Source: Nitrospirota bacterium | GTDB lineage: Bacteria; Nitrospirota; Nitrospiria; Nitrospirales; Nitrospiraceae | Length of the DNA stretch: 42,087 nucleotides | Direction of reading: 5' to 3' | Assembly (NCBI GenBank): GCA_026387615.1 | Contig: JAPLLI010000042.1 | Span: forward strand, 1-42,087 | Shown: positions 244-32,809 of the stretch, one piece after another | How the letters are laid out: each line of letters starts with the position of its first letter | Position numbering within the stretch: position 1 is the first letter of the stretch | Notes under the pieces: generated by a model | Told to the model about the DNA's origin: nothing | The model's database searches: none | The model's input: the letters and a program-made list of their open reading frames with translations, nothing else | Made by a program: the position numbers and the translations under genes

Positions 244-543
244 ATGCAGAAGTTGATGATTGCGGCGTTGACCGCATTGTGTCTGGCCGGGGTCAGTTCG
301 CTGGTCATGGCCGATGAAGCCATCAAGGGCGAGATCGGGACGATGAAGTCCGAGGTCGCGGTTGAAAAAGAGTCAGTGAAAGCCGACTCGAAGGGCAAGA
401 AGAAGGCCCACAAAAAGAAGATGAAGTCGAAGCGTCACGCGGCGAAGGGCAAGATGAAAGCGCAAAAAGAGGAAGCGCCGGTCGCCGCTCCAGCGGCTCC
501 GGCTCCTGCAGCCCCAGCCGCGGCTCCAGCCGCAGGCCACTAA
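244..543 (+). CDS. Secreted Lys/Ala/Pro-rich small protein
   Basis: This 99-aa protein has no recognised catalytic family. Residues 1-23 form a signal peptide with a hydrophobic core and probable cleavage after VMA. The mature part begins with a short acidic/neutral stretch, passes into a strongly basic Lys-rich block (about residues 50-80), and ends in an Ala-Pro tail of repeated APAAP units. The start at 244 is fixed by AGGAGGTG at 233-240, five bases upstream; an in-frame extension to 178 has no ribosome site and would bury the signal peptide. The composition suggests a periplasmic or surface polycation that binds nucleic acid, anionic lipid or polysaccharide, but that is inference. A 17-bp hairpin follows the stop. 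The upstream neighbour is an IS end about 100 bp away. Confidence 0.8.
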   Translation: MQKLMIAALTALCLAGVSSLVMADEAIKGEIGTMKSEVAVEKESVKADSKGKKKAHKKKMKSKRHAAKGKMKAQKEEAPVAAPAAPAPAAPAAAPAAGH

Positions 544-568
544 GCTCGCGTAGTCGCGTCAGTCTTGT

Positions 569-610
569 GCACGGCCCCCGGGAGGCTTTCCTCCCGGGGG
601 CCGTGCTTAT
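569..610 (+). terminator. Strong hairpin terminator after the Lys/Ala-rich gene
   Basis: The arms at 569-585 and 590-606 are perfectly complementary over 17 bp (GC-rich core) with a CTTT loop. Only a short TTAT follows, so the T-tract is weak; termination is likely but may be partial. It sits 25 bases after the stop codon at 543. Confidence 0.75.
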
Positions 611-631
611 GTGAGGAGCCTCTTCCCTTGC

Positions 632-660
632 TTGTTCCCTCAGAGCCCGTTTGCTAGGAT
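632..660 (+). promoter_or_regulatory. Probable sigma-70 promoter of exonuclease III
   Basis: TTGTTC (632-637), a 17-nt spacer and TAGGAT (655-660), with TGC just before the -10 (extended -10 form). It lies 30 bases upstream of the ATG at 691 and just after the preceding terminator. Confidence 0.5.
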
Positions 661-690
661 GCGCCGCCTGAATATCCAAGGGGTCTTTGC

Positions 691-1464
691 ATGAAAATCG
701 CCACGTTCAACGTCAATTCGCTCCGCAAACGTTTGCCCATCGTGCTGGACTGGCTGGCTCAGCAGAAGCCCGACGTGCTGTGCCTTCAGGAAACCAAGGT
801 TCAGGATAGCGAGTGTCCGCTGCTGGCCCTGGCGGAATCCGGGTACGAAATCACGTATCGGGGGATGAAGTCCTATAACGGGGTTGCGATTTTGAGCCGG
901 GAGAAACCGGAGGCAGTGGCTTATGGGTTCGATGACGGAGGCGATGTGGAGGACGCGCGGCTCCTGCGCGTGGTGATCAAGGGGATTCCGATCATCAACA
1001 CCTACGTGCCGCAGGGCTTCGAGATCGATTCACCCAAGTATCAATATAAGCTGGGCTGGTACGACCGGCTCCGCAAGTATTTCGAGAAGCATTTGTCGCC
1101 GGACAAACCGGCCATCTGGTGCGGCGACATGAACGTCGCGCCACGGCCGATGGACGTGCACAGCCCTGAAAAACATCTCAAGCATGTCTGTTACCACGAG
1201 GATGCGCGGCGGGCTTATGAGAAGACAGTGGCCTGGGGATTTCAGGACGTGTTCGTGAAGCTCTATCCGGACCGGCAGCAATATACGTTTTGGGATTACC
1301 GGGCTCCGGCATCGTTGGAAGCGAATCGAGGCTGGCGCATCGACCATATTTTGGCAACGGCCCCGCTGGCGGAGCACTGTGTCAGAGTAGAAGTGGACGT
1401 CGAGCCGCGGCGAGCGAAAGACCCCTCAGATCATACATTCTTATGGGCGGAGTTTTCGGTCTAA
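691..1464 (+). CDS. xth: Exodeoxyribonuclease III (AP endonuclease)
   Basis: This 257-aa enzyme of the EEP (exonuclease-endonuclease-phosphatase) fold cleaves the backbone 5' of abasic sites and removes 3' blocking groups in base excision repair. The active-site set is visible: N7 in FNVNSLR, E34 in LQETK, the GDMN block with D146 and N148, the WRIDHI motif near residue 218, and the terminal D247-H248 in SDHTF. The length matches the Xth family (about 255-270 aa). The ATG at 691 has an AAGGGG ribosome site and a promoter at 632-660. It is monocistronic, with a terminator upstream and a convergent small gene downstream. Confidence 0.95.
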   Translation: MKIATFNVNSLRKRLPIVLDWLAQQKPDVLCLQETKVQDSECPLLALAESGYEITYRGMKSYNGVAILSREKPEAVAYGFDDGGDVEDARLLRVVIKGIPIINTYVPQGFEIDSPKYQYKLGWYDRLRKYFEKHLSPDKPAIWCGDMNVAPRPMDVHSPEKHLKHVCYHEDARRAYEKTVAWGFQDVFVKLYPDRQQYTFWDYRAPASLEANRGWRIDHILATAPLAEHCVRVEVDVEPRRAKDPSDHTFLWAEFSV

Positions 1465-1555
1465 CCACGAGCGCGACGTCCACGTCTGCTCAATTCGGTT
1501 GGTTCGGCAAGTCGTCCGTTCCAACCGAACTGATCCATGATGTCGAACAAACCAG

Positions 1556-1726
1556 TTATGCCGCATCCAGAGCCGGTTGCTTCGCACGCAGCGAAGTGAC
1601 GCGATTCTGTGCGATGAGCGGATCCAGGACTAGGCCGCAATTGAGACAGCGGAGCACGGCCACGTCCTGCGAGAAATCCGGTCGCGACTCTTTCACCATC
1701 AGCCCATTGCATTTTTTACAGGTCAT
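1556..1726 (-). CDS. 56-aa zinc-ribbon protein
   Basis: The reverse strand encodes a 56-aa protein with two knuckles, CKKC at residues 3-6 and CLNC at 27-30, spaced as in a treble-clef or zinc-ribbon fold that would bind one Zn ion. The tail (about 31-56) is neutral to basic. A strong AGGAGGTGGAG ribosome site lies about seven bases before the ATG at 1726, which, with the ordered cysteines, makes this a convincing gene despite its size. The function is unknown; such mini zinc ribbons often act as nucleic-acid or protein adaptors, which is family-level inference. It converges on exonuclease III, whose stop is at 1464. Confidence 0.8.
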   Translation of the reverse strand: MTCKKCNGLMVKESRPDFSQDVAVLRCLNCGLVLDPLIAQNRVTSLRAKQPALDAA

Positions 1727-1983
1727 CGTCTCCACCTCCTGCGGTCATCTATTCCAGTATCGATGAAACGGCCATGCACGAGGCAGACTGTAGCATTGCA
1801 AGATTAACGGGGTGTTAACTGGCAGTTAAAACCCTCTAATGTCCGGAAGTGAGGCACGGCAGGCTCGCCGGGGAATTCAGTCGCTCCGTGCCAGGCCCGA
1901 TCTTGCCGGTCAGAAGCTTTCTGCAACGTCGGATGCTTTCCCTCGGGGAATCGGTTATTCTGCGCGGCCCACACGAGACCAAT

Positions 1984-3276
1984 ATGCTGGCACCACAACG
2001 CTGGATTCCGCTCCCGCTCTATACGCAAGTGCTCATCGCCGTGGCCTGCGGGGCGTTGCTCGGAGCCATCTTCGGTCAGGAGTCCTATCTGGGCGGTCTG
2101 CGTAACGAGCATCTGGGGCGGATCGGCCTGCTCGTCGTCACGCTGCTCAAGACGCTCGCTATCCCGCTCATCTTCTTTGCGATCCTCGACGCGCTCATCC
2201 GCACCAGCCTCCCGCTGCGTCAGGGGGCCAAGTTGCTGGTCATCTGTTTCGTCAACGTTTCCGTCGCCATGACGATCGGTCTCGTGATCATGAACACCTG
2301 GCAGCCGGGCCGGGCCTGGGTCGGCCACGTCGACGAGTTGCTGCACCTCGTGCCGGGCTCCGCGCCATCGGCGGGCCAGCTCTCGGCAGTGCAGACCGGG
2401 GCACAAAGCCCGTTTGAGTACCTCGCGTCCTATATTCCCCGCACCATCATGGCGCCGTTTTCCAGCAGCAACATCATTGGCGTCGTCCTCCTCGCCCTGG
2501 TCCTTGGCGCCACGCTTCGCCGTCTGCGGGGAGCGGCCAAGCAGGGGAGTGGGGTGGTCCATGTGTTGGTGGGCAGCATCGAGCGAGTCTATGGTTGGCT
2601 CGTGCAGATGCTCGGGTGGATCATTCTCGCGGTGCCGCTCGCCGTCTTCGGCGTCGTCGCGCAGGTCGTCGGCAAGGCGGGCATCGGTGTCTTCACCGTC
2701 CTCTGGATCTTTCTCGCCGCCATGCTCCTGGGGCTTGCCGTCCATGCGCTCGTCTACTATCCGCTCGTCGCCTGGCTGGTGGGGAAGAAGTCGCCGAAGG
2801 TCTACCTGGGGCAGGGGGCCGACGCGATCATGACCGCCATGTCCTGCAACAGCAGCCTCGCCACCGTGCCGGTCACGCTCCGGTGCCTTGAGCGCATGAA
2901 CGTTTCGCCGCAATCGTCGCGTCTCGCCGCCTGTATCGGCACGAACCTCAACAATGACGGCGTCACCCTCTACGAGGCGATGGCCGCGCTTTTTCTCGCT
3001 CAGGCGCTGGGGTTCGACCTGCCGATGGCGAATCAGATCTTGATCGTGGTCGCCTCGATCATTGCGGGGGCTGGCGTGGCCGGCATTCCAGAAGCCGGGC
3101 TGATCGTGTTGCCGCTCGTCCTTTCAGCCGCGGGTCTGCCGGCCCATGTCATCGTCGCAGCCATTCCCCTCATCATGACCGTGGATTGGATCATCGCGCG
3201 AGCCCGCTCCGGCGTGAACGTCATGAGCGACATGCTCGTCGCCATTCTCCTCGATACGGGTCGTCGCGTTGGGTGA
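1984..3276 (+). CDS. Dicarboxylate/amino-acid:cation symporter (DAACS/GltP-like)
   Basis: This 430-aa multi-pass membrane carrier couples Na+ or H+ to uptake of dicarboxylates or acidic amino acids. Visible family signatures are a serine-rich hairpin (CNSSLATVP), an NMDG-type motif written here as NLNNDGVTLYE, the second hairpin (AGVAGIPEAGL) and a C-terminal D...R...NVMSD helix. In the NMDG motif the usual Met, which contributes to sodium coordination in homologues, is Asn; substrate or ion use may therefore differ. The start at 1984 is chosen because the first membrane helix begins ten residues later; in-frame starts at 1933 and 1849 would add an unstructured leader. No ribosome site precedes 1984, so the exact start is uncertain. 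Confidence 0.85.
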   Translation: MLAPQRWIPLPLYTQVLIAVACGALLGAIFGQESYLGGLRNEHLGRIGLLVVTLLKTLAIPLIFFAILDALIRTSLPLRQGAKLLVICFVNVSVAMTIGLVIMNTWQPGRAWVGHVDELLHLVPGSAPSAGQLSAVQTGAQSPFEYLASYIPRTIMAPFSSSNIIGVVLLALVLGATLRRLRGAAKQGSGVVHVLVGSIERVYGWLVQMLGWIILAVPLAVFGVVAQVVGKAGIGVFTVLWIFLAAMLLGLAVHALVYYPLVAWLVGKKSPKVYLGQGADAIMTAMSCNSSLATVPVTLRCLERMNVSPQSSRLAACIGTNLNNDGVTLYEAMAALFLAQALGFDLPMANQILIVVASIIAGAGVAGIPEAGLIVLPLVLSAAGLPAHVIVAAIPLIMTVDWIIARARSGVNVMSDMLVAILLDTGRRVG

Positions 3277-3440
3277 TCTGGTTTCTCTCGTGGGTGTCCT
3301 TCCGGGGACCGTGACCGTTGGTCCTGTATGTAGAGCCGGACGGCCTGCGGACAGAGCGGGAACCGTTCGTGAGCAGGGGGACCGACGGTTCACGGAATTC
3401 CACAGAGTTTTTTTACTATTCTGTTAGAGGAGGTGTTGCG

Positions 3441-4241
3441 ATGCCAGGAATGGATTCCCTCATAGGATATGTCATCCACTACGGGTTTCAAGTGCTGGGC
3501 GCGGCGATCGTGTTTGGGGCTGGGGTGCTGGTCGCCCGCTGGGTTGGCAAGCTGACGCAGCAGTGGCTCGAGCACCAGGACATGGAGCCGCCAGTCCGGA
3601 TGTTGTTGGCCAAGGCCGTGCAGATCGTGATTCTGCTCTTTGCCACTATGGCATCGCTGGGTCAGTTGGGCGTCCAGATTGCACCGCTGCTCGCCGGCAT
3701 CGGTGTGGCCGGCCTCGGCGTCGGGTTGGCCTTGCAAGGCGTGTTGAGCAACCTGGTGGCCGGGCTCTCGATTATTTTCACTAAACCCTATCGGGTGGGG
3801 GAACAGATCTCGCTCCTGGGTGTGCAGGGGGACGTCGTCGCCATCGGGATCTTTTCGACGACGCTCCTGCATCCCGATCGTTCAAGCATCGTCATTCCCA
3901 ACCGCAAAATCGTGGGGGAGATCCTGCATAATTTCGGAACCATCCGCCAGCTCCATCTCCAAGTCGGCGTGGCCTATCGCACGAACCTGAGTGAGGCGCT
4001 GGCGCTCGTGCGAGAGATCCTGGTTCAGAATCCCGGCGTCCTCACGGATCCCGCCCCTCTGGTGGGAGTTTCCCAACTGGGCGATTCTGCTATCACGATC
4101 TCCATTGCACCCTGGACGTCGGCCGTCAACGTCGCGAGGGTTCAAGGGGAATTGAACCAAGCCATCGTCGAACGGTTCCTGGCGGCACAGATTGAGATTC
4201 CCTTTCCGCAACATGAAGTCCGGATGCTTTCGACGGTCTAA
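3441..4241 (+). CDS. mscS: MscS-family small-conductance mechanosensitive channel
   Basis: A 266-aa inner-membrane channel that opens under membrane tension to release solutes during hypo-osmotic shock. Three membrane segments are seen (about residues 12-34, 55-78 and 82-112). The last is the Gly/Ala-rich pore helix (GIGVAGLGVGLALQGVLSN) diagnostic of MscS. It is followed by the beta domain (PYRVGEQI, IPNRKIVG) and the mixed C-terminal domain. The length is close to E. coli MscS (286 aa). The start at 3441 is set by AGAGGAGGT at 3426-3433; a longer frame from 3318 has no ribosome site. It is probably transcribed alone, about 160 bp after the symporter gene. Confidence 0.93.
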   Translation: MPGMDSLIGYVIHYGFQVLGAAIVFGAGVLVARWVGKLTQQWLEHQDMEPPVRMLLAKAVQIVILLFATMASLGQLGVQIAPLLAGIGVAGLGVGLALQGVLSNLVAGLSIIFTKPYRVGEQISLLGVQGDVVAIGIFSTTLLHPDRSSIVIPNRKIVGEILHNFGTIRQLHLQVGVAYRTNLSEALALVREILVQNPGVLTDPAPLVGVSQLGDSAITISIAPWTSAVNVARVQGELNQAIVERFLAAQIEIPFPQHEVRMLSTV

Positions 4242-4416
4242 TCGAGGCATAAGGATCGGGGGTCTCTTCTCGCTGGAGCGATTAGATCGAAGACGGGCGC
4301 AAGGAGGGTCTGTTCGGTTGGGGAGAAGGGGAAAACGATCATAAAGGGGGGTGAGCGGGGGGCTTGTCCTCCCTCCCTAAGTGGGCTTTCAGGCGGATAA
4401 TTTTGCAACTCGTTGA

Positions 4417-4491
4417 TTATATGGAAATATTCGTTCTTCTTTCGTGGGATTGTTCATGATATGATTTACGGGCTGCTTTCTTGGTCGCCAT
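4417..4491 (-). CDS. 24-aa basic peptide, divergent MATKKAA copy
   Basis: A 24-codon reverse frame starts with the same seven residues (MATKKAA) as the KA-repeat peptide at 4875-4949 and has exactly the same length, but its remainder (RKSYHEQSHERRTNISI) is not a Lys/Ala repeat. A GGGGGAG ribosome site precedes the ATG at 4491. It could be a real diverged paralogue or a decayed copy. Confidence is low because of its size. Confidence 0.35.
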   Translation of the reverse strand: MATKKAARKSYHEQSHERRTNISI

Positions 4492-4518
4492 GGGCTCTCC
4501 CCCGGCGTAGAGAAAGTC

Positions 4519-4554
4519 GGGGAGGTGATGTGGCCATCACCTCCCCATTTTTTT
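4519..4554 (+). terminator. Rho-independent terminator (plus strand)
   Basis: A perfect 12-bp stem with arms at 4519-4530 and 4535-4546, a TGGC loop, then A and seven T residues (4548-4554). It is a canonical terminator for transcripts coming from the left, probably mscS, although it lies 280 bases past that stop. On the reverse strand it lies just upstream of the 24-aa gene at 4417-4491. Confidence 0.85.
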
Positions 4555-4874
4555 GCCTGCTGGCCATCTTATTTCGGTAATCGTACCCTGCCGTTATCTG
4601 CTTCTGCATGGGTTGAGTTCGGATCTGGACCGCGAACGCGTGGCTCTCTCAGGACAAACTTGTCCGTCCTGTACCGATGAAGATCTGGTTGTGGAATACA
4701 GGGTCTGTCTCGTGACAGATGATCGCTCGGATAGTAGAGCGTCTCAAAAATTCTGCGGGTGAATATGTTGCTTGGTCGCCGTCTGTGACGTCTGTGAGCT
4801 GCGGCGTTGGTCGGAGGGATATCGAGAGAGAGGGAAGGTGAGGAGGCGACGTGGCCGCCGCCCCCTCAATGGCA
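4555..4874. other. Intergenic stretch without a supported gene
   Basis: A plus-strand frame here (4553-4762, TTG start) contains one CPSC pair but no ribosome site, and it begins inside the terminator T-tract. An imperfect 9-bp inverted repeat (GAGGGGGCG against CGCCTCCTC, reverse strand) lies just after the stop of the 24-aa KA gene and could be a weak terminator without a T-run. I see nothing else. Confidence 0.4.
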
Positions 4875-4949
4875 CTACTTCTTCTTCTTGGCCGCCTTCT
4901 TCGCTGGCTTCTTCGCGACCGCCTTCTTCGCTGCTTTCTTCGTTGCCAT
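4875..4949 (-). CDS. 24-aa Lys/Ala-repeat (histone H1-like) peptide
   Basis: The reverse frame encodes a 24-residue peptide made almost only of Lys and Ala, with one Thr, one Val and one Pro (MATKKAAKKAVAKKPAKKAA, then four Lys). The KKA/AKKP pattern is that of the C-terminal tail of eukaryotic H1 and of bacterial H1-like proteins, which bind DNA non-specifically. A GTGGAG ribosome site lies about six bases before the ATG at 4949, and a TACAAT box lies on the same strand at 5001-4996. It is far shorter than the usual bacterial H1-like proteins, so it may be a peptide acting alone or with a partner. Nucleoid association is inference. Confidence 0.6.
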   Translation of the reverse strand: MATKKAAKKAVAKKPAKKAAKKKK

Positions 4950-5264
4950 GAAATCTCCACCCCCCTTCGATGTCAAAATGTGAATTGCTGTGTGTATTGT
5001 ATATCAGAGTTTGAGCAGCGAGTAAAATTTTGTTTGCGAGATTTCTTCGGTGGGCATGAGCGACATAGACCCGCATCCTCTCGCGATGGAAAAAGTGTAG
5101 GGGTTTTGAAACCGTAGAAAGAACAGGAACGGGATCGAGGGGGCCTCTTCTCCTCGCGTTCTCGCCAGCCGCGTCGTTGATTGAATTGTAGGCCAGTTGC
5201 CGTGATACTCTCTGTCGGGTTGCTGGGTGCGACGGGATCGTTGAACAGGAGCGGTGGCAGATTC
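4950..5264. other. Divergent intergenic region with a reverse-strand -10 box
   Basis: This lies between the KA-repeat peptide (reverse) and the flavoprotein (forward). A TACAAT -10-like box for the reverse gene is at 4996-5001. The rest shows no supported gene; the forward frame open from 5181 is the likely untranslated leader of the flavoprotein. Confidence 0.4.
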
Positions 5265-6554
5265 GTGGAAGAGGCACCAGTCGATATCTGTATTGTCGGA
5301 GCCGGGGCTGCGGGCCTGGCTGCTGGTATCTTTGCAGGAGAGGGGGCGGCGGAGACGGGCCTCTCCTGCCAGGTTGTGCTTCTCGACGGGGCCAAGACCC
5401 TCGGAGCCAAGATCCTCGTCTCAGGCGGCGGTCGCTGCAATGTCACGCACGACGTCGTGACGCCGACAGACTTTTTTGGCAATCGCCACATTATCAAAAA
5501 TGTCCTTGCGGCCTTTCCAGTCCAGGCCACGATCGACTGGTTTGCCTCACTGGGTGCGGATCTTACGTGTGAAGAAACCGGCAAGCTGTTTCCCGTGACG
5601 GACAAGGCGCGGACGGTTCTGACGGCGCTCGTCAATCGTTGCCAGGAGCTGGGCCTGGTCATCCGTCCGGATCATCGCGTGACGGACATTGTCCGCCTCA
5701 CTGGCGCGGAGTCCGGTTTCCTCATTCACCATACCCATGGAACCCTGCAAGCCAAGAAGGTCATTTTGGCCACCGGTGGCCGCTCCCTTCCCAAAACGGG
5801 GAGCGACGGATTCGGGTATGAGCTGGCCCGGCGTCTGGGCCATCACGTCAGCGCGACCAGTCCGGCCCTGGCTCCGTTGGTTCTGGACGAGACCCTGTTC
5901 CATAAAGATCTTTCGGGCATTTCACAGGAAGTGGAGCTGACGACGACGGTGAACGGCTCGGTCGTGGACCGAAGGACCGGTAGTTTGCTCTGGACCCATT
6001 TCGGCATCAGTGGCCCGGTCGTGATGGATGCCAGCCGTTTTTGGGCAAGCGCGCAGGAAGCGGGCCAGCCGGTTGATCTATGTGTGAATTTCCTGCCGGC
6101 GCTGACCCAGGAGTCGGCCCGCCAATGGTTCATGGAGCAAGCAGCTAGGGCGCCCCGTCGCTCCCTGACCAAGACCCTGGCGCATCTGGCCACGGAACGA
6201 TTCGCCGAATCCTTCTGCCGTTATGTCGGGATCAACGGACAGACGGCCATGGCCCAACTGCCGCGGAAGGATCGGGATCGCCTGTTGGTGGCGCTCACGA
6301 AGTTTCGGCTTCCGGTGCAGCAGGATCGGGGCTGGAACTATGCGGAGGTTACGGCTGGAGGTGTGCCCCTGGAGGAAGTCAATTTTCGTACGATGGAATC
6401 GAAGCTGGTGCCGGGCCTGTATTTGGCGGGTGAAATCCTCGATTGCGATGGGCGGATCGGGGGCTTCAACTTTCAATGGGCCTGGGCCACGGGATGGCTC
6501 GCCGGGAAGGCGAGCACGAGACCTGTTTCGAGTGATGAGAAGGCTCGCCCATGA
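5265..6554 (+). CDS. HI0933/BaiN-type FAD-dependent oxidoreductase
   Basis: This 429-aa flavoprotein of the HI0933/BaiN/RdsA family is predicted to use FAD and probably NAD(P)H; the substrate is unknown in most members. Visible motifs are the dinucleotide-binding GAGAAGLAAG near the N-terminus, the family signature KILVSGGGRCNVTH, an ATGGRSLPKTGSDG block in the middle, THFGISGPV, and the C-terminal flavin motif GLYLAGEILDCDGRIGG followed by FNFQWAWATG. The start is placed at GTG 5265 because the Rossmann strand begins there; the frame is open back to TTG 5181 without a good ribosome site, so the start is uncertain. The next gene starts 134 bp later on the same strand. Confidence 0.9.
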   Translation: MEEAPVDICIVGAGAAGLAAGIFAGEGAAETGLSCQVVLLDGAKTLGAKILVSGGGRCNVTHDVVTPTDFFGNRHIIKNVLAAFPVQATIDWFASLGADLTCEETGKLFPVTDKARTVLTALVNRCQELGLVIRPDHRVTDIVRLTGAESGFLIHHTHGTLQAKKVILATGGRSLPKTGSDGFGYELARRLGHHVSATSPALAPLVLDETLFHKDLSGISQEVELTTTVNGSVVDRRTGSLLWTHFGISGPVVMDASRFWASAQEAGQPVDLCVNFLPALTQESARQWFMEQAARAPRRSLTKTLAHLATERFAESFCRYVGINGQTAMAQLPRKDRDRLLVALTKFRLPVQQDRGWNYAEVTAGGVPLEEVNFRTMESKLVPGLYLAGEILDCDGRIGGFNFQWAWATGWLAGKASTRPVSSDEKARP

Positions 6555-6688
6555 ACGGCCCCTGTCTTTTACCGGGGTGGGTGCAGGGAACCGGTGTTTT
6601 CTTGACAGAGTGGGGGAGATCATCTATCCGTGGACAGGAAGGCTGGTATGTCGAATCATCCGAGCGGGGGGCAGAGGGACTAGATGAG

Positions 6689-7204
6689 ATGGGACGTATA
6701 TTAAGCTGTCCGCGGTGCAAAAAAGATGGCCCCTTGCGGTCCCATCCGCAATCGCTCGGGGAGCATCTCGCCGCCCTTCTTTTCGTGGCGCCTTTTCGCT
6801 GCCGTTCGTGTAGTCACCGCTTTCTGGCGTCCCGTTTATGGCTGGACCATTCCACGCATCCGACCGATCGCCGCGAGCATCTCCGCATTCCTGTGCGCTT
6901 CGTTCTCTCCTTCTCCGGGGACAAGGTCCGGGGTGAGGGAACGGTGCTGGACCTCTCGATGGGCGGCTGTATGATCAAGAGCGAGGCCTTGGTTCACGTA
7001 GACGATATTTTCTATCTGCAACTGGCGCTCGGTGAAGATGAAGCCCCCCTTGAAGTGGCCGCCATGGTTCGTGGGGTGACGGCACGCGGTATCGCCTTCA
7101 AATTTCTTCGAGCCGCCCAGGAGGACAAGCGCTTGTTTGCCTTCGTCCAGGCGCAGGTCGAGCATTCCGGTAAATCCTCGCAGCACACCATCGTCGCCGC
7201 CTGA
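6689..7204 (+). CDS. Zinc-ribbon plus PilZ domain protein
   Basis: A 171-aa protein. Residues 1-50 hold two cysteine pairs (CPRCKKDG and CRSC) forming a zinc ribbon. Residues about 60-160 are a PilZ domain with the c-di-GMP-binding elements RREHLR (an RxxxR) and DLSMGG (DxSxxG). It is therefore a likely c-di-GMP receptor; the zinc ribbon may be the output or partner interface, but the target process is unknown. The ATG at 6689 is preferred because the first zinc knuckle follows at once and GAGGG lies about ten bases upstream. An in-frame start at 6551, overlapping the flavoprotein stop, would add 46 low-complexity residues. Confidence 0.85.
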   Translation: MGRILSCPRCKKDGPLRSHPQSLGEHLAALLFVAPFRCRSCSHRFLASRLWLDHSTHPTDRREHLRIPVRFVLSFSGDKVRGEGTVLDLSMGGCMIKSEALVHVDDIFYLQLALGEDEAPLEVAAMVRGVTARGIAFKFLRAAQEDKRLFAFVQAQVEHSGKSSQHTIVAA

Positions 7205-7290
7205 GCCGGCCGGCCTGTGACCTGTACATCGTGAACCATGAAAGGCGTCTGAGGCAGAGCGTCCGGCAGCCCTGCATGTTCAGCATCCTG

Positions 7291-7596
7291 TTAACCCGGC
7301 GTTTCCCAGGCAGAATGAAGGGGATGGTCGTTGATCAGCTCCTCATGAGCGGCGAGATCATAGGGTTCTATGGCGAGCTCCTGCTCTTTGAGCGGTTCCG
7401 GGCAGGCGGGGGAACAGAGGTAGGCGCGATAGGATTCCGCCTTCTCCTGTGTGGCGAAGCGGCAGAGTCCATATTCCGGCATGCCGGACGAGGGATGCCA
7501 AAAAGCCAGTTCAATGGCACTCCCCTGATAGATGCCCAGGGTGCGGTGTCGGATCTGAAATCCGCCGGGCAAATGTGAAGAAGGTTCAAGCGACAT
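7291..7596 (-). CDS. Hypothetical protein, 101 aa
   Basis: I do not recognise this protein. It is a soluble 101-aa polypeptide with no signal peptide or membrane segment. A central region (about residues 25-60) contains aromatic residues and a GLCRFATQEKAESYRAYLC element with two of its cysteines, a third following in SPAC. Coding composition is protein-like throughout, and GGAGG lies about 11 bases before the ATG at 7596. A longer frame (to 7731) overlaps the start of lemA and is unlikely. It is divergent from lemA (ATG 7691), so the 94-bp gap must hold both promoters. Confidence 0.6.
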   Translation of the reverse strand: MSLEPSSHLPGGFQIRHRTLGIYQGSAIELAFWHPSSGMPEYGLCRFATQEKAESYRAYLCSPACPEPLKEQELAIEPYDLAAHEELINDHPLHSAWETPG

Positions 7597-7690
7597 CGGA
7601 CGTTCTGCCTCCGTATCATATTGGTAATTCTCATGATAGCATGATCGATATTCTGCGTTATAGCGCCGCGTATGTTGAAGGAGGACGACC

Positions 7691-8290
7691 ATGGGTAGTC
7701 GCATCTCGATATTCGCCACTCTCGCCATCACTGTTGTGTTCGCCGGCCTTTCAGGCTGCGGCTACAACGATCTTCAGGGGTTAGACGAAGACACCAAGGC
7801 CGCCTGGAGCGAAGTGGTCAATCAGTATCAGCGGCGGGCCGATCTGATCACGAACCTGGTGGCCACCGTCAAAGGCTATGCGGCACATGAGCAGGAGACG
7901 CTCGAAGGGGTCGTGCAGGCGCGTGCGCAAGCCACGGGGATTCAAGTGACGCCTGACACGTTAAAAGACCCAGCTGCGTTTGAGCAGTTTCAGAAGGCGC
8001 AAGCCAGCCTCACCACGTCGTTAGGGCGCCTCATCGCCATCGCAGAGAATTACCCGAATTTAAAGGCGGACCAGAACTTTCGTGATCTTCAGAGTCAACT
8101 CGAAGGGACGGAGAATCGCATTGCCGTCGCGCGCAAGCGCTATATCGAGAAAGTGGCGGAATATAACAAAGGCGTTCGTTACTTCCCCACGAACCTGACG
8201 GCCAAGTTCCTCCTCCATCTGGAAGAGAAGCCGAACTTTACCGTGGCGGATGAGAAGGCTGTGGCCAAGCCGCCAGAGGTGAAATTTTAG
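7691..8290 (+). CDS. lemA: LemA-family lipoprotein
   Basis: A 199-aa LemA-family protein. The N-terminus has a lipoprotein signal with lipobox LSGC (Cys about residue 23), so it is probably membrane-anchored in the periplasm. The LemA domain is recognisable by the long helices around LDEDTKAAWSEVVNQYQRRA and by the YNKGVRYFPTNL segment near the C-terminus. The GAAGGAGGACGACC ribosome site directly precedes the ATG. Family members are commonly encoded beside TPM-domain proteins, as here (two TPM genes follow). The biochemical role of the pair is not settled. Confidence 0.92.
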   Translation: MGSRISIFATLAITVVFAGLSGCGYNDLQGLDEDTKAAWSEVVNQYQRRADLITNLVATVKGYAAHEQETLEGVVQARAQATGIQVTPDTLKDPAAFEQFQKAQASLTTSLGRLIAIAENYPNLKADQNFRDLQSQLEGTENRIAVARKRYIEKVAEYNKGVRYFPTNLTAKFLLHLEEKPNFTVADEKAVAKPPEVKF

Positions 8291-8291
8291 C

Positions 8292-8545
8292 AGGATGCTG
8301 AAAAATCCTGCCAGCAGGGGGGAGATGGCCCGATGAGTCCCCTGTGCTCGCGCAACGCGCGCCCTCGGACGGGTGAGGAGGGGAGCAGCCAGGCACCCTC
8401 CTTGCTCGCAGAACGCGCACGATGAAACGGTGCTCGTTCGATGCGCGCAGTAGAGGGCAACCTTGGCCACTCCCCTGAAGGGATATGGCGGGAGGGACGG
8501 GGAGCCCTCGTGGGACGCGCGCAGAGGGGGACTTATCGGGCCATC
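8292..8545. repeat. Large palindromic intergenic repeat between lemA and the TPM gene
   Basis: Outer arms at 8324-8342 and 8527-8545 match as a 19-nt inverted repeat with one mismatch. The element starts right after the lemA stop with AGGATGCTGAAAAATCCT and contains inner words such as CGCAGAACGCGCACGATG and GTTCGATGCGCGCAG (8402-8452). It carries no ribosome site or protein-like frame. It resembles palindromic repeats I associate with Nitrospira genomes; the family name is not established here. It separates genes that otherwise look like one operon. Confidence 0.6.
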
Positions 8546-27068: not shown

Positions 27069-28217
27069 CTATTCTTCCGGAATCCCGCCGAGCCGAATCA
27101 TCCGACTGCCATATCGTTCGATTAATCCATCCAGCGCGGCGATCGCCTGATCCTGGCGCCGGGTAAAGAGGGATTCAGTCGCAGGCAGGAGACCGGAAAA
27201 CGAGAGACCGACCAGCCGATAGGCTGTCCGTGGGAGGGCCAGGCTGTGGAGCGCCGATCGGATGGCCGGCCACATGGCCGGGTCATAGTTGAGCGCTTGC
27301 CGGAACTGCTGCTGTCGTGTGGTGATCTGGAACGTGTTGTCTTTCAGTTTGACGGTGAACGATCCTGCCGCCAGGCCCTGCAAGCGCAGGTCATGCGCCA
27401 AGGTGCCGAGAAAACTTCGAATCGTTTCTTCCAGAACAGCCAGATCACTGGTGTCGTGCTCGAACGTCGTTTCATGCCCGAGGCTTTTGGATTCCCGATC
27501 GGCGACGACCGGATCGTGATCGACTCCCCGCGCCACTTCCTGCCAGGCGAGAAGCCGATGGCCCCATCGCTGTCGCAGAAACGGCTCGTGCCGAGGATCC
27601 AGCAGGTCGCTGACATAGTGAATGCTGAGCGCATGCAACAGGGCCGCGGACTTGGGTCCGATGCCCGGCAGGTCGCGCACGGGCCTCGGCGCGAGAAACG
27701 ACGCTTCGGTTCCCGGTTCGATCACCGCCAGCCCGTCAGGCTTATGCGCATCCGCTGCGACCTTCGCCACAGTTTTTCCGCTGGCCAGGGCCACCGTGCA
27801 ACGGAGCCCCGTGGCCTCGAAGATTGCTTCCTTCACGCATCGGCCCAGTCGGGACGGGTCTGGATAGAGCGACTGCATGTCCGTCGTCTCCGCATAAAAC
27901 TCGTCGATGCTGGTCCATTCGGTGACGGGGAGCAGGCGGCTGATGACGGCCTGCATCTGTTCATGGAGCCGTTGATAGAGCAGCCGGTCTGGTGGGACGA
28001 GCATGAGCTGGGGGCAGAGGCGTGTGGCTTCACCGGTCGGCATGGCCGAACGGACGCCGAAGGCACGGGCCTCGTAACTTGCGGCTGCGATGATGCCGCG
28101 CGGGGAGGATCCTCCGACCGCCACCGGTTTGCCTGCAAGGCTGGGGTCTGCCAGGACGGCTGCCGAGGCGAACATGGCATCGATGTCCCCGAACAGGATC
28201 TGGCGAGACCAGCGCAT
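27069..28217 (-). CDS. dinB: DNA polymerase IV (Y-family)
   Basis: A 382-aa translesion polymerase. The catalytic acidic residues are visible: D11 and D13 in GDIDAMFASA, and D105-E106 in TSIDEFY. The steric-gate Phe (F16) that excludes ribonucleotides is kept, but the residue before it is Met instead of the usual Phe. A helix-hairpin-helix (RDLPGIGPKSAALL) lies at about 180 and the little-finger domain follows. The C-terminus ends GGIPEE without an obvious clamp-binding QxxLxL motif. ACGGAGAT precedes the ATG. No SOS-type palindrome is evident; instead a heptad CGT repeat starts 11 bases upstream of the start codon. Confidence 0.92.
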   Translation of the reverse strand: MRWSRQILFGDIDAMFASAAVLADPSLAGKPVAVGGSSPRGIIAAASYEARAFGVRSAMPTGEATRLCPQLMLVPPDRLLYQRLHEQMQAVISRLLPVTEWTSIDEFYAETTDMQSLYPDPSRLGRCVKEAIFEATGLRCTVALASGKTVAKVAADAHKPDGLAVIEPGTEASFLAPRPVRDLPGIGPKSAALLHALSIHYVSDLLDPRHEPFLRQRWGHRLLAWQEVARGVDHDPVVADRESKSLGHETTFEHDTSDLAVLEETIRSFLGTLAHDLRLQGLAAGSFTVKLKDNTFQITTRQQQFRQALNYDPAMWPAIRSALHSLALPRTAYRLVGLSFSGLLPATESLFTRRQDQAIAALDGLIERYGSRMIRLGGIPEE

Positions 28218-29059: not shown

Positions 29060-29986
29060 TTACCCCAATTCTTCGTGGACCGCCGCCGCCAGCAACGGCA
29101 CCATGATTTCGTGGTGGCCGATGAGGGAGTAGCCTTTCCCGCCCTTTTGGGTCGGTCGCCGCACCACGTTGGTGAGGGGGCGGTAGTGAGCCATGAAGTC
29201 CATGTTGACGGTCGTAATATTGGTCAGTTCATGACCGAGGTTCCGTCCCAGCGACACGGCCTTGAGGAAGACCTCCGGTAAAATGACGGCGGAGCCGAGA
29301 TTGAGATACACGCCCCCCTCCATTCCGGAGACGACGGCGGCCAGCCGTCGAAAGTCCAGCAGCGAGGTTGCGCCAATGGCGGCTCCATCTGCGGCAGGAT
29401 GCATATGGATGATGTCGGTGCCGATGGCCACATGCACGGTCACGGGAATGCCGAGTTTCGCGCCGGTCGCCAGGATGCTCGTCTCGCGATGGGGGAATTG
29501 TCCCTCGCGCCGGTTGATGTAGTGCCCGACGGATTCGCCGAGCCCCTCGCGATCATGAGACCCGCGAACGATCGCTTCGTTCAGCATGCGGCCGGTTTCT
29601 TCCGCCATCCCGAAACGGCCCTCGTCGATTTCCGCATCGACTTCCTCGGACGTATGGCCCATGAGCGCCAATTCGAAATCGTGAATGATGCCGGCCCCGT
29701 TCATGGCCACCGCCGAGACGATCCCCTGCTGCATGAGGTCCACGATAATCGGGCTCAATCCGACTTTGATGACATGGGCGCCGATGCCCAGGATGACCGG
29801 TTTGCCTCTGCGATGGGATTTTGCGATGGCTTTGGCGACGGCGCGCAAGGTGGTGACGCCGAGGATGTCCGGTAGGGAATGGTAGAACTGGGTGAAGCTG
29901 CCTCCGCGCTTCCAGGGGCTGGCAAAGTCGGAGACGCGGACTTTGCTGTGCCGTTTCTTGAGCGGATAGGTCGTGAGATCTGTCAC
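29060..29986 (-). CDS. Deoxyhypusine-synthase-like protein
   Basis: A protein of about 308 aa that resembles bacterial deoxyhypusine-synthase-like proteins (NAD-binding Rossmann-type fold). Visible blocks are GIGAHVIKVGLSPIIVDLMQ, NGAGIIHDFELALMGHTSE, GRFGMAEETGRMLNEAI, ETSILATGAKLGIPVTVHV, GTDIIHMHPAADGAAIGA, and GGVYLNLGSAVILPEVFLKA. True deoxyhypusine synthase modifies eIF5A, which bacteria lack, so the bacterial substrate is unknown. GTG 29986 is the most upstream sensible start after the gmhA stop; no ribosome site is clear. It lies between gmhA and the SprT-like gene in one reverse-strand run. Confidence 0.6.
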   Translation of the reverse strand: MTDLTTYPLKKRHSKVRVSDFASPWKRGGSFTQFYHSLPDILGVTTLRAVAKAIAKSHRRGKPVILGIGAHVIKVGLSPIIVDLMQQGIVSAVAMNGAGIIHDFELALMGHTSEEVDAEIDEGRFGMAEETGRMLNEAIVRGSHDREGLGESVGHYINRREGQFPHRETSILATGAKLGIPVTVHVAIGTDIIHMHPAADGAAIGATSLLDFRRLAAVVSGMEGGVYLNLGSAVILPEVFLKAVSLGRNLGHELTNITTVNMDFMAHYRPLTNVVRRPTQKGGKGYSLIGHHEIMVPLLAAAVHEELG

Positions 29987-30035
29987 GTTGATCGGGGGGA
30001 TTAGGCGCGGGGTCGTAACGGGAGGCCGTTGCCGG

Positions 30036-30614
30036 TCAGGAGATTTTGCCAAGGAGTTGCTCCTCGATGAGTTCACACAGGACGTGGCCGAGTGTGATGT
30101 GACTTTCTTGAATGCGGGCTGTGACCGCCGAGGGGACGACAAAGGGATAGTCCACCAGACCGGCCAGTTTCCCGCCGGTTCCACCGGTCCAGCCGATGGT
30201 GATGAGGCCACAAGCCTTCGCCGCGTCCACGCCCTTTAAGACGTTGGGGGAGTTGCCGCTGGTGCTGATGGCGATGGCGACGTCGCCTTTCTGGCCATGG
30301 GCGCGGACCTGTCGGGCAAAGAGTTCGTCGTACCCGTAATCGTTGGCGATGCAGGTGATGGCGGCAATGTCGGTGGCCAGGGCGAGAGCCGGGAGCGGCG
30401 CCCGCTCGCGCTTATAGCGGCCGACGAACTCGGCGGCGAGATGGGCTGCATCCGTGGCGCTGCCTCCGTTGCCGAAGAGCAACACTTTATGTCCCTCGCG
30501 AAAGGCGGCAACCATCAGTGTTGCGACCTGCACGATGCGATCGGCATGGTCGCGCGCGAACTGTTGCTTGACGGTCGCGCTTTCGGCAAAGGCGCTGAGG
30601 GCAAGTTCTTTCAT
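30036..30614 (-). CDS. gmhA: Sedoheptulose-7-phosphate isomerase
   Basis: A 192-aa SIS-domain enzyme converting sedoheptulose 7-phosphate to D-glycero-D-manno-heptose 7-phosphate, the first step of ADP-heptose synthesis. Motifs include FGNGGSATDAAHLAAEFVGR, the phosphosugar loop STSGNSPNV, and the C-terminal HITLGHVLCELIE with metal-binding His residues. The length is typical. A near-perfect promoter lies at 30621-30649 with only six bases between the -10 and the ATG, so the mRNA is probably leaderless. rfaE2, for a later step of the pathway, is elsewhere in the window. Confidence 0.95.
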   Translation of the reverse strand: MKELALSAFAESATVKQQFARDHADRIVQVATLMVAAFREGHKVLLFGNGGSATDAAHLAAEFVGRYKRERAPLPALALATDIAAITCIANDYGYDELFARQVRAHGQKGDVAIAISTSGNSPNVLKGVDAAKACGLITIGWTGGTGGKLAGLVDYPFVVPSAVTARIQESHITLGHVLCELIEEQLLGKIS

Positions 30615-30649: not shown

Positions 30650-30682
30650 ACGCGATCAGTCGGAGGGTTTGTGCGTGGCCTA

Positions 30683-30700: not shown

Positions 30701-31957
30701 ATGGCACAAGACCAACCAGTCAAAGCATTAGTGATCGCGCTCACCGACCATGCGGCGGCGGCGATCTATTCCATCAATCGTCTGCAGCCAGATTCCCTCT
30801 GCTTCGTGTTGCCGGCCGGGGCGAAAGCGCTGGTGGAGTCCGACGTTCAGCCGAAGATCGCACAGATGCCCAGGCGGTGGGATTGGATCCTACTGGAGGA
30901 GACGGGCGAATTCGTCGGCTGTTATCGGGCGCTGACGCATACGCTTCCGGAGATGTTGCGGACCTGGGATGTGCAGCCGGGCGAGCTGGTCGTCGATGTG
31001 ACCGGGGCCACTCCTGCCATGGCCGGCGCCCTGACGTTGGCGACCCTGTCCCATAGTTCGCGAATCGTGTCGCTCGTGCCGGCGCGAGAGGGGCAGGACG
31101 AGGATCGAATCGATATCGCGGGGAAGCCGTTCCTCTGGACGCAGGGGAATCCCTGGGATGAGGCCGCCTCCGTTTCGCGCCGCGAGGGTTGCGACCTGTT
31201 CAATCGGGGACTATTTGCCGCGTCGGCGAAGCTGTTCCGTGAAGTCGAAGCCAGGGTGAGCGGCGGGCAGAAGCCCCTGTATCGGGCCTTTGCGGACCTG
31301 GCCGATGGGTACGATCTGTGGGAGCGGTTTCACTATCGCCAGGCCTGGGAAAAACTGAAGAATGCCGTGAAGGCCTTCGACATGGCGTTGGTCTGGGGTG
31401 GCCCGCAAGGACTCAAAGCGGTTCTTCCGTTGATTAAAGCGAACGCGGGATTTCTGGAACGGCTGGTCCTCGATCCTGCTCCCGTGAAAGACCTGCAGGC
31501 CCTTGATGTGTTGGCCCATGCCGGTCGACGTCTGCATGGCATGCATGATTCGGAAACCGCCATGGTCTCGTTGGTTCGCGCGCTCGAAGCCTTTGCCCAA
31601 CGGCAACTGTTCACCCGGTACCAGATCAAAACCTGGGACGTGCAGCCGGAGCAATTGCCGCAGGCGCTGCAAGAAACCTGTCGATCCTGTTGGTTGGAAG
31701 ACCTTGACGGCAAGTACAAGCTACCTGTGCAGGCGCAGTTCCGTGCGCTGGCCGGGTTAGGCGATCAGATGGGCCAAGCCTTTCTCCGCGAGTGGCCGAC
31801 GATGAAACCGCTGCTCGACGCCGCCAATCAGGCCATCCTCGGCCATGGCTTCGAGCCGGTCAAATCCGAACGGGTGCAGCAGCTCTACGATGTCGTCGTT
31901 AGGCTAGCCGGCGTTAACGTCACGTCGTTGCCGAAGTTTCCGACGCTGAACGTTTGA
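30701..31957 (+). CDS. CARF-domain protein, TIGR02710-like, with degenerate HEPN-like C-terminus
   Basis: A 418-aa protein I assign to the TIGR02710 group of CRISPR-associated CARF proteins. The N-terminal half (about 1-150) is Rossmann-like, with the ligand-loop motif VDVTGATPAMAGALTLA expected to bind a cyclic oligonucleotide. The C-terminal half is helical; near its end ANQAILGHG (residues 375-383) matches the position where relatives, as I recall them, have an RNxSxLxHG (Rx6H) HEPN RNase motif, but the Arg is Ala375 here. That suggests lost or altered RNase activity (inference). No CRISPR array or cas gene lies within the window. The start is ATG 30701, next to an extended -10 box; GTG 30671 is the alternative. 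Confidence 0.65.
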   Translation: MAQDQPVKALVIALTDHAAAAIYSINRLQPDSLCFVLPAGAKALVESDVQPKIAQMPRRWDWILLEETGEFVGCYRALTHTLPEMLRTWDVQPGELVVDVTGATPAMAGALTLATLSHSSRIVSLVPAREGQDEDRIDIAGKPFLWTQGNPWDEAASVSRREGCDLFNRGLFAASAKLFREVEARVSGGQKPLYRAFADLADGYDLWERFHYRQAWEKLKNAVKAFDMALVWGGPQGLKAVLPLIKANAGFLERLVLDPAPVKDLQALDVLAHAGRRLHGMHDSETAMVSLVRALEAFAQRQLFTRYQIKTWDVQPEQLPQALQETCRSCWLEDLDGKYKLPVQAQFRALAGLGDQMGQAFLREWPTMKPLLDAANQAILGHGFEPVKSERVQQLYDVVVRLAGVNVTSLPKFPTLNV

Positions 31958-32016: not shown

Positions 32017-32373
32017 ATGGACAAGATACGAAACTTTCGTGATCTTGAAGTGTGGAAGCTAGGCAAGGGAATTGTGCTCGACGTATATCAATTGACCAAG
32101 GGTTTTCCTCAAGAAGAACTCTATGGGTTGGTTTCGCAAATGCGCCGAGCCGCCGTGTCAATCGCGGCGAACATCGCGGAGGGGTTCAATCGAAAGCATA
32201 ATGCAGAGTATCGCCAGTTTTTGTATATCGCGCTGGGCTCCTGCGCAGAACTGGAGACCCACATTGAAATTGCTCATGATCTGGGGTTCATTACGGGAGA
32301 CTGGCAGGGTAATCTTTTAGAGAAGCTTGACCACGAATCGAAGATGCTCAGAAACCTCATCAAGCGTCTTTAG
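32017..32373 (+). CDS. Four-helix-bundle protein (23S rRNA intervening-sequence protein family)
   Basis: A 118-aa protein of the S23/IVP four-helix-bundle family. The family pattern is clear: FRDLEVWKLGKGIVLDVYQL, then PQEELYGLVSQMRRAAVSIA, ANIAEGFNRKHNAEYRQFL, and an LGSCAELETHIEIA helix. Relatives are encoded in insertions within 23S rRNA genes, and the same fold is used by Avd proteins of diversity-generating retroelements; isolated copies of unknown role are common. Here it stands alone, flanked by inverted heptad-CGT arrays B (31961-31992) and C (32373-32406), which makes it look like cargo of a small cassette. No strong ribosome site precedes the ATG. Confidence 0.88.
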   Translation: MDKIRNFRDLEVWKLGKGIVLDVYQLTKGFPQEELYGLVSQMRRAAVSIAANIAEGFNRKHNAEYRQFLYIALGSCAELETHIEIAHDLGFITGDWQGNLLEKLDHESKMLRNLIKRL

Positions 32374-32410: not shown

Positions 32411-32809
32411 ATGGAAGTTAGAATCTACTACGAAGACACCGACTGCGGCGGGGTGGTGTATTACGCCAATTATCTCAAATATTTCGAGCGAGCGCGGACG
32501 CAGTATCTCGAGGCGCGAGGGCTGTCGGTGGCCGGGCTCATGACGGAAGGCTCGGTGTTCGTGGTCGTGCGGGCAGAATTGGACTACCGATCTCCCGCCC
32601 GTTATGGCGAGACGCTGGTCGTCGAAACGGTCGTCTCCGAAGTGACGGCCGCCTCGTTCACGTTTTCGCATGTGATTCGAGAACGGGAGAGCCAGCGTGT
32701 GGTGGTGGAAGGCTCGGCCCGTCTGGCGGCCACAGACGGCAATGGCAAAGTGACGCGCCTCGACAAGGCGATGGTTGCCGCGCTACAGTCCGGCGCGCGC
32801 TCTGCTTGA
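32411..32809 (+). CDS. ybgC: YbgC-type acyl-CoA thioesterase
   Basis: A 132-aa hot-dog-fold thioesterase of the 4HBT family, linked in other bacteria to the Tol-Pal envelope system and phospholipid metabolism. The signature YYEDTDCGGVVYYANYLKYF near the N-terminus contains the catalytic Asp. The length is typical (about 130 aa). The start at 32411 is chosen because the conserved domain begins there; the frame is open to 32327 through array C. No tol genes are in the window. Heptad arrays touch both ends of the gene. Confidence 0.93.
   Translation: MEVRIYYEDTDCGGVVYYANYLKYFERARTQYLEARGLSVAGLMTEGSVFVVVRAELDYRSPARYGETLVVETVVSEVTAASFTFSHVIRERESQRVVVEGSARLAATDGNGKVTRLDKAMVAALQSGARSA

Follow-up and report, generated by a model that had tools for sequence, protein, structure and literature searches.

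Genes and domains at the locus

The window (the whole stretch of DNA that was analysed, 42,087 nt) holds a gene for a 418-aa protein with a CARF, a 6H and a HEPN domain. The gene, its parts and its neighbours are laid out as follows.

27069-28217, minus strand: Y-family DNA polymerase (DinB-like), near the locus
29060-30022, minus strand: GSU2086-family (deoxyhypusine-synthase-like) protein, the usual neighbour of the SIS gene
30036-30614, minus strand: SIS-domain protein (GmhA/DiaA-like), divergent from the CARF gene
30701-31957, plus strand: CARF-6H-HEPN gene, degenerate Csm6-like, 418 aa (open reading frame, profile matches)
30722-31147, plus strand: CARF-like Rossmann domain, residues 8-149 (AlphaFold model, Foldseek CARF matches)
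30740-30751, plus strand: position of CARF motif I, residues 14-17, LTDH (V-G-G-S/T in relatives), signature gone
30995-31021, plus strand: position of CARF motif II, residues 99-107, DVTGATPAM (D-x-T-G-G-T-K-x-M in relatives), Gly103 and Lys105 lost
31148-31480, plus strand: Csm6 6H linker domain, residues 150-260 (Pfam PF22205, 44 bits, cut-off 27.6)
31505-31909, plus strand: Csm6 HEPN domain, residues 269-403 (Pfam PF09670, 67.8 bits, cut-off 27)
31823-31825, plus strand: Ala375 codon, at the place of the catalytic Arg of R-X4-6-H
31844-31846, plus strand: His382 codon, the catalytic His, kept in 70 of 78 orthologs
32017-32373, plus strand: S23 / 23S rRNA-intervening-sequence four-helix protein, between the CARF gene and ybgC
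32411-32809, plus strand: YbgC/FadM-family acyl-CoA thioesterase (profile matches), co-directional and downstream of the CARF gene

There is an in-frame GTG upstream of the CARF gene at 30671; the orthologs start with ATG. Profile searches placed the protein in TIGR02710, the family to which the earlier note had related it, with a full-length match of 127.5 bits against a cut-off of 83.9, and both Csm6 Pfam domains, 6H and HEPN, scored above their cut-offs. The PADLOC model CARF1--CARF_HEPN (PDLC01812) matched residues 1-417 of the 418 with 771 bits. Structure prediction with AlphaFold gave a confident model (mean pLDDT 93.6, pTM 0.86), in which the strands of the CARF domain are predicted at residues 9-13, 32-38, 59-65, 96-99, 119-127, 136-139 and 142-149, and its best PDB matches in Foldseek were Thermus Csm6 structures (E = 5.8e-14 for 8JBC). 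A phmmer search with the single protein found nothing real among PDB sequences, but a profile built from the ortholog alignment did find Thermus Csm6, as its best match (1.6e-20). Profiles, model and fold search all give the domain order CARF, 6H, HEPN, as in TIGR02710 and Csm6-type proteins. Judged from these matches, the protein is by descent a TIGR02710/Csm6-type CARF-6H-HEPN protein.

In 46 of 50 ortholog loci, ybgC follows the CARF gene on the same strand at a distance of no more than 800 bases. In many loci only 0-21 bases separate the two genes, which from this often close spacing are perhaps co-transcribed. The SIS gene stands divergent beside the CARF gene in all 40 loci that hold both. 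The S23-type small gene was seen at its present place in about a quarter of ortholog loci (13/54), and is apparently mobile or often lost. As the earlier note had stated, there is no sign of CRISPR here: profile searches recognised no cas gene among the neighbouring genes of the CARF gene, and no array-like repeats were found within the window.

Loss of the catalytic and ligand-binding signatures

Profile alignment placed A375 on R415 and H382 on H422 of Thermus Csm6, which confirms the earlier proposal that Ala375 stands in for the catalytic Arg. This state is order-wide and not the quirk of a single genome: in 78 distinct orthologs of the Nitrospirales core clade, residue 375 is Ala in 76, Val in one, Ser in one and Arg in none, against Arg in 23 of 23 relatives compared, which include same-order paralogs beside cas genes and a close sister clade. 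In the aligned segments of 80 named loci, a set that overlaps with the first, Ala was seen in 77, Val in two and Ser in one, and within that comparison Arg375 appeared only in the sister-clade locus L127. Eight sequences of one subclade (L108, L109, L110, L111, L112, L114, L115 and L063) have Tyr, Gln or Gly instead of His382, and the position equivalent to N416 is no longer conserved (Asn in 38 of 78 core orthologs). With Arg absent from all 78 and His missing from eight, the R-X4-6-H motif of an active Csm6/Csx1 ribonuclease was not found in the core clade. In Thermus Csm6, R415A, N416A or H422A each abolish RNase activity (PMC10897365); since the natural substitution at the R415 position is also Ala, the change at residue 375 reproduces a mutation that inactivates the enzyme in the laboratory. 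The core clade forms one side of a branch with support 100 and is joined to the sister clade with support 100. This tree, which was built by a quick method without bootstrap and has distant relatives on long branches, places a single loss of Arg at the base of the core clade and a single, later loss of His in the subclade.

The loop TGATPAMAG, which the earlier note had read as a CARF-type ligand loop, does occupy the place of CARF motif II. It is a degenerate form of the family loop TGGTKxM, however, and is thus no proof of ligand binding: across the core clade GGTK has become xATP, and the motif I Gly and the lid Arg are gone. Neither motif I (G-G-S/T) nor motif II (T-x-G-T-K), as expected for cyclic oligoadenylate (cOA), is present, Gly15, Gly103, Lys105 and Arg130 having been lost. 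Altogether, eleven positions in the two domains are at least 95% conserved in relatives and kept in fewer than 10% of core sequences: G15, S38, G103, K105 and R130 in CARF, and N273, D286, R290, Y292, R375 and A381 in HEPN. In Thermus Csm6 the ligand is contacted by G58, T59 and S60 of motif I and T133, G135 and K137 of motif II, and K137A abolishes cA4 cleavage (PMC10897365). These residues for cA4 binding and cleavage are mostly lost across the whole core clade, and the K137 equivalent is Pro, Ala or Ser (Pro in the 418-aa protein). Motif II is partly kept (D99, T101 or Ser, T104, M107) and follows a pattern of the core clade's own, D-x-[T/S]-x-A-T-x-A-M; motif I is variable. Some ligand may still be bound by this residual motif II loop.

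Distribution, selection and CRISPR context

An ortholog match was found in 205 of 236 Nitrospirales genomes and in 142 of the 154 better ones, where the 205 include some partial genes at contig ends (among them G088 and G119, in which the gene is cut) and a few genomes with a cas-linked paralog as the sole match. Carriers include Nitrospira moscoviensis and Ca. N. defluvii. Other sampled families of the same class gave no match among the matches listed in the phylum search, and the frames are open throughout the matches listed. True absences occur in several small genomes (for example L219, L221 and L222), so the gene is not indispensable. In G141, G188 and G193 the CARF gene is missing and the SIS gene beside it is intact, and in G007 neither the CARF gene nor YbgC lies near the SIS gene. 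Of the CARF gene and ybgC, the 1.7-Mb genome G141 (L219, about 6210-6385) retains just the end of ybgC, next to an intact SIS gene.

Among 20 close orthologs the median dN/dS was 0.096 (CARF 0.114, 6H 0.069, HEPN 0.083) by simple Nei-Gojobori counts, at a synonymous divergence that is already high; the value of 0.083 in HEPN indicates that the dead domain is under constraint. Scaffold residues common to the core clade and its relatives are W207, R276, R293, E296, Q300, L380 and G383, and the core clade has acquired invariants of its own, including W60, D61, K310, W312, R328, Q346 and G381. Near-universal, single-copy, at one locus, with conserved neighbours and under purifying selection, the gene behaves as a core gene of Nitrospirales.

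Profile searches of the host genome (a MAG, 88.9% complete) found no Cas10 and no RAMP match, extending the lack of type III genes from the window to the genome. The host does carry Cas1, and one contig holds the subtype I-C genes cas3, cas5, cas8c, cas7, cas4 and cas1, as read from their translations; no array-like repeat was found on that contig. This I-C set (L218, contig C281, about 500-8400) sits at a contig end beside Pup-proteasome genes (ligase-like proteins and an ATPase). Across the order, a Cas10 palm domain exceeded the cut-off in 14 of 236 genomes and SMODS nucleotidyltransferases were found in 22 of 236, the host having none of the latter. Type III-bearing genomes of the order possess a separate TIGR02710 paralog with intact motifs, which in G140 and G202 is only a few kb away from cas1, and the core copy is equally dead in the Cas10-bearing genomes sampled. 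The linkage to, or co-occurrence with, Cas10 that would characterize a type III ancillary effector was not seen.

Interpretation and comparison with known systems

From the sequence evidence we consider it likely that the protein is a catalytically dead CARF-6H-HEPN member of the Csm6 family, most likely unresponsive to cOA, which was fixed before the carrier Nitrospirales families diverged and is now a non-CRISPR core gene. A non-CRISPR role had been one of the options raised in the earlier note, and the evidence supports it. Probably, this doubly degenerate Csm6 has been exapted as a dimeric binding or regulatory scaffold. The catalytic Arg was lost once, at the base of the core clade, and the His later in one subclade; what survived would be the dimeric Csm6 scaffold, serving for binding or regulation. 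In this picture the HEPN cleft would bind RNA or a partner with no cleavage, and the altered CARF pocket would either accept a different ligand or just stabilise the dimer. HEPN proteins lacking the motif have been proposed as nucleic-acid binders (PMC3710099). Gene order perhaps points to a link with the YbgC thioesterase. More tentatively, although the chance is a substantial one, a CRISPR signalling nuclease may have been domesticated prior to the diversification of Nitrospirales and turned into a housekeeping protein without catalysis, either a regulator or a sensor for a ligand outside CRISPR, with the CARF-HEPN architecture serving as a general cellular pseudoenzyme scaffold.

In a narrower form of the preferred reading, the protein would sense some other nucleotide ligand, unrelated to CRISPR, and regulate a target via the HEPN cleft. 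The motif II loop, with its own conserved pattern, does not look like drift, and CARF families such as RtcR that lack the basic residue after strand 4 have been proposed to bind other ligands (PMC4012209); the variability of motif I speaks against it, and we regard this form as possible but rather doubtful. The protein could instead be a sponge or dominant-negative buffer that binds cOA, or pairs with active Csm6, and thereby damps type III immunity. The earlier note had suggested a cyclic-nucleotide sensor or sponge as a possibility, and the Csm6 fold, the mostly conserved D99, T104 and M107 and the few genomes such as G140 and G202 whose core copy is accompanied by an intact TIGR02710 protein encoded near cas genes could be taken that way. 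Such a role is disfavoured, and we judge it quite unlikely: clade-wide, motif I has lost its Gly, motif II its Gly and Lys, and the lid its Arg, and most carriers have no known source of the ligand because they encode neither Cas10 nor a recognisable SMODS cyclase. Furthermore, in the sampled genomes that do encode Cas10 the core copy is just as dead.

Slightly less probable still is a ribonuclease that remains active with another basic residue in place of Arg375. The core protein may have some unusual RNase activity through other residues, as His382 is kept in most orthologs and R391, K369 and D373 are invariant near the motif in the core clade. Since these three already accompany the intact RN..S.LAHG of the sister clade, they are not replacements; R391 was rejected as a compensating Arg on this ground. 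In addition, the gene is kept where His382 is lost, and R415A kills the Thermus enzyme (PMC10897365). Finally, a functionless, decaying remnant carried by inertia would agree with the loss of both activity signatures and with true deletions in several small genomes, but is highly improbable given a gene matched in 205 of 236 genomes, open frames in all the matches listed, a dN/dS of about 0.1 in all three domains and new invariants such as W60, D61, K310 and W312.

CARF-HEPN proteins are usually viewed as immune effectors that are patchy and fast-moving. In Nitrospirales, an ecologically important order that is home to nitrite oxidisers and comammox bacteria, one such protein has apparently become a core gene once its catalytic and signal-binding signatures were gone. 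This would be a clean example of a CRISPR immune protein exapted for another use, and the intact sister clade allows a comparison. It also carries a warning for annotation, as most Nitrospira genomes would score a type III effector (TIGR02710) where there is actually a dead non-CRISPR homolog. The protein cluster is already in PADLOC. The literature searched, which did not include the 2020 CARF classification (Makarova et al.), held no description of its inactivation, the loss of its CARF signature or its core status in Nitrospirales, and nothing specific on a Nitrospira CARF protein.

Thermus thermophilus Csm6 (PDB 5FSH, 8JBB, 8JH1) shares the order of CARF, helical linker and HEPN, and its R-X4-6-H position aligns, at about 18% identity in the structural alignment. 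The core protein differs from it in having Ala for R415, Pro, Ala or Ser for K137, no motif I and no type III locus. Cas-linked TIGR02710 CARF-HEPN proteins (Csx1/Csm6-type), such as TTH_RS10730 beside cas1/cas10 on Thermus pTT27 and the Nitrospirales paralogs, have the same full-length domains. TTH_RS10730 is probably TTHB144. These proteins keep VGG, GGTK and RN..S.LAHG, sit among cas genes and are patchy, whereas the core protein is chromosomal, near-universal in its order and degenerate. PADLOC PDLC01812 represents the same protein cluster, whose sequences had thus been collected earlier, and the model as listed does not say whether the protein is active, a core gene or linked to CRISPR. 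The sister clade is a stand-alone TIGR02710 protein from another family of Nitrospirota (G251, G273 and G283; L117-L119) that is 37-40% identical. Like that of the core protein, its gene is remote from cas genes, and it neighbours rho, prfA and murA (read from translations in L118, with the same gene sizes in L117 and L119); unlike in the core protein, the CARF and HEPN motifs are intact. In that family all 4 genomes with clear Cas10 have the gene, against 1 of the 6 without, for ten genomes only, several of them incomplete. As the sister clade is intact, distant from cas genes and tracks Cas10, the common ancestor may already have left the cas locus while continuing to serve type III immunity in trans; the copy in Nitrospirales would then have lost both activities and been kept for another role.
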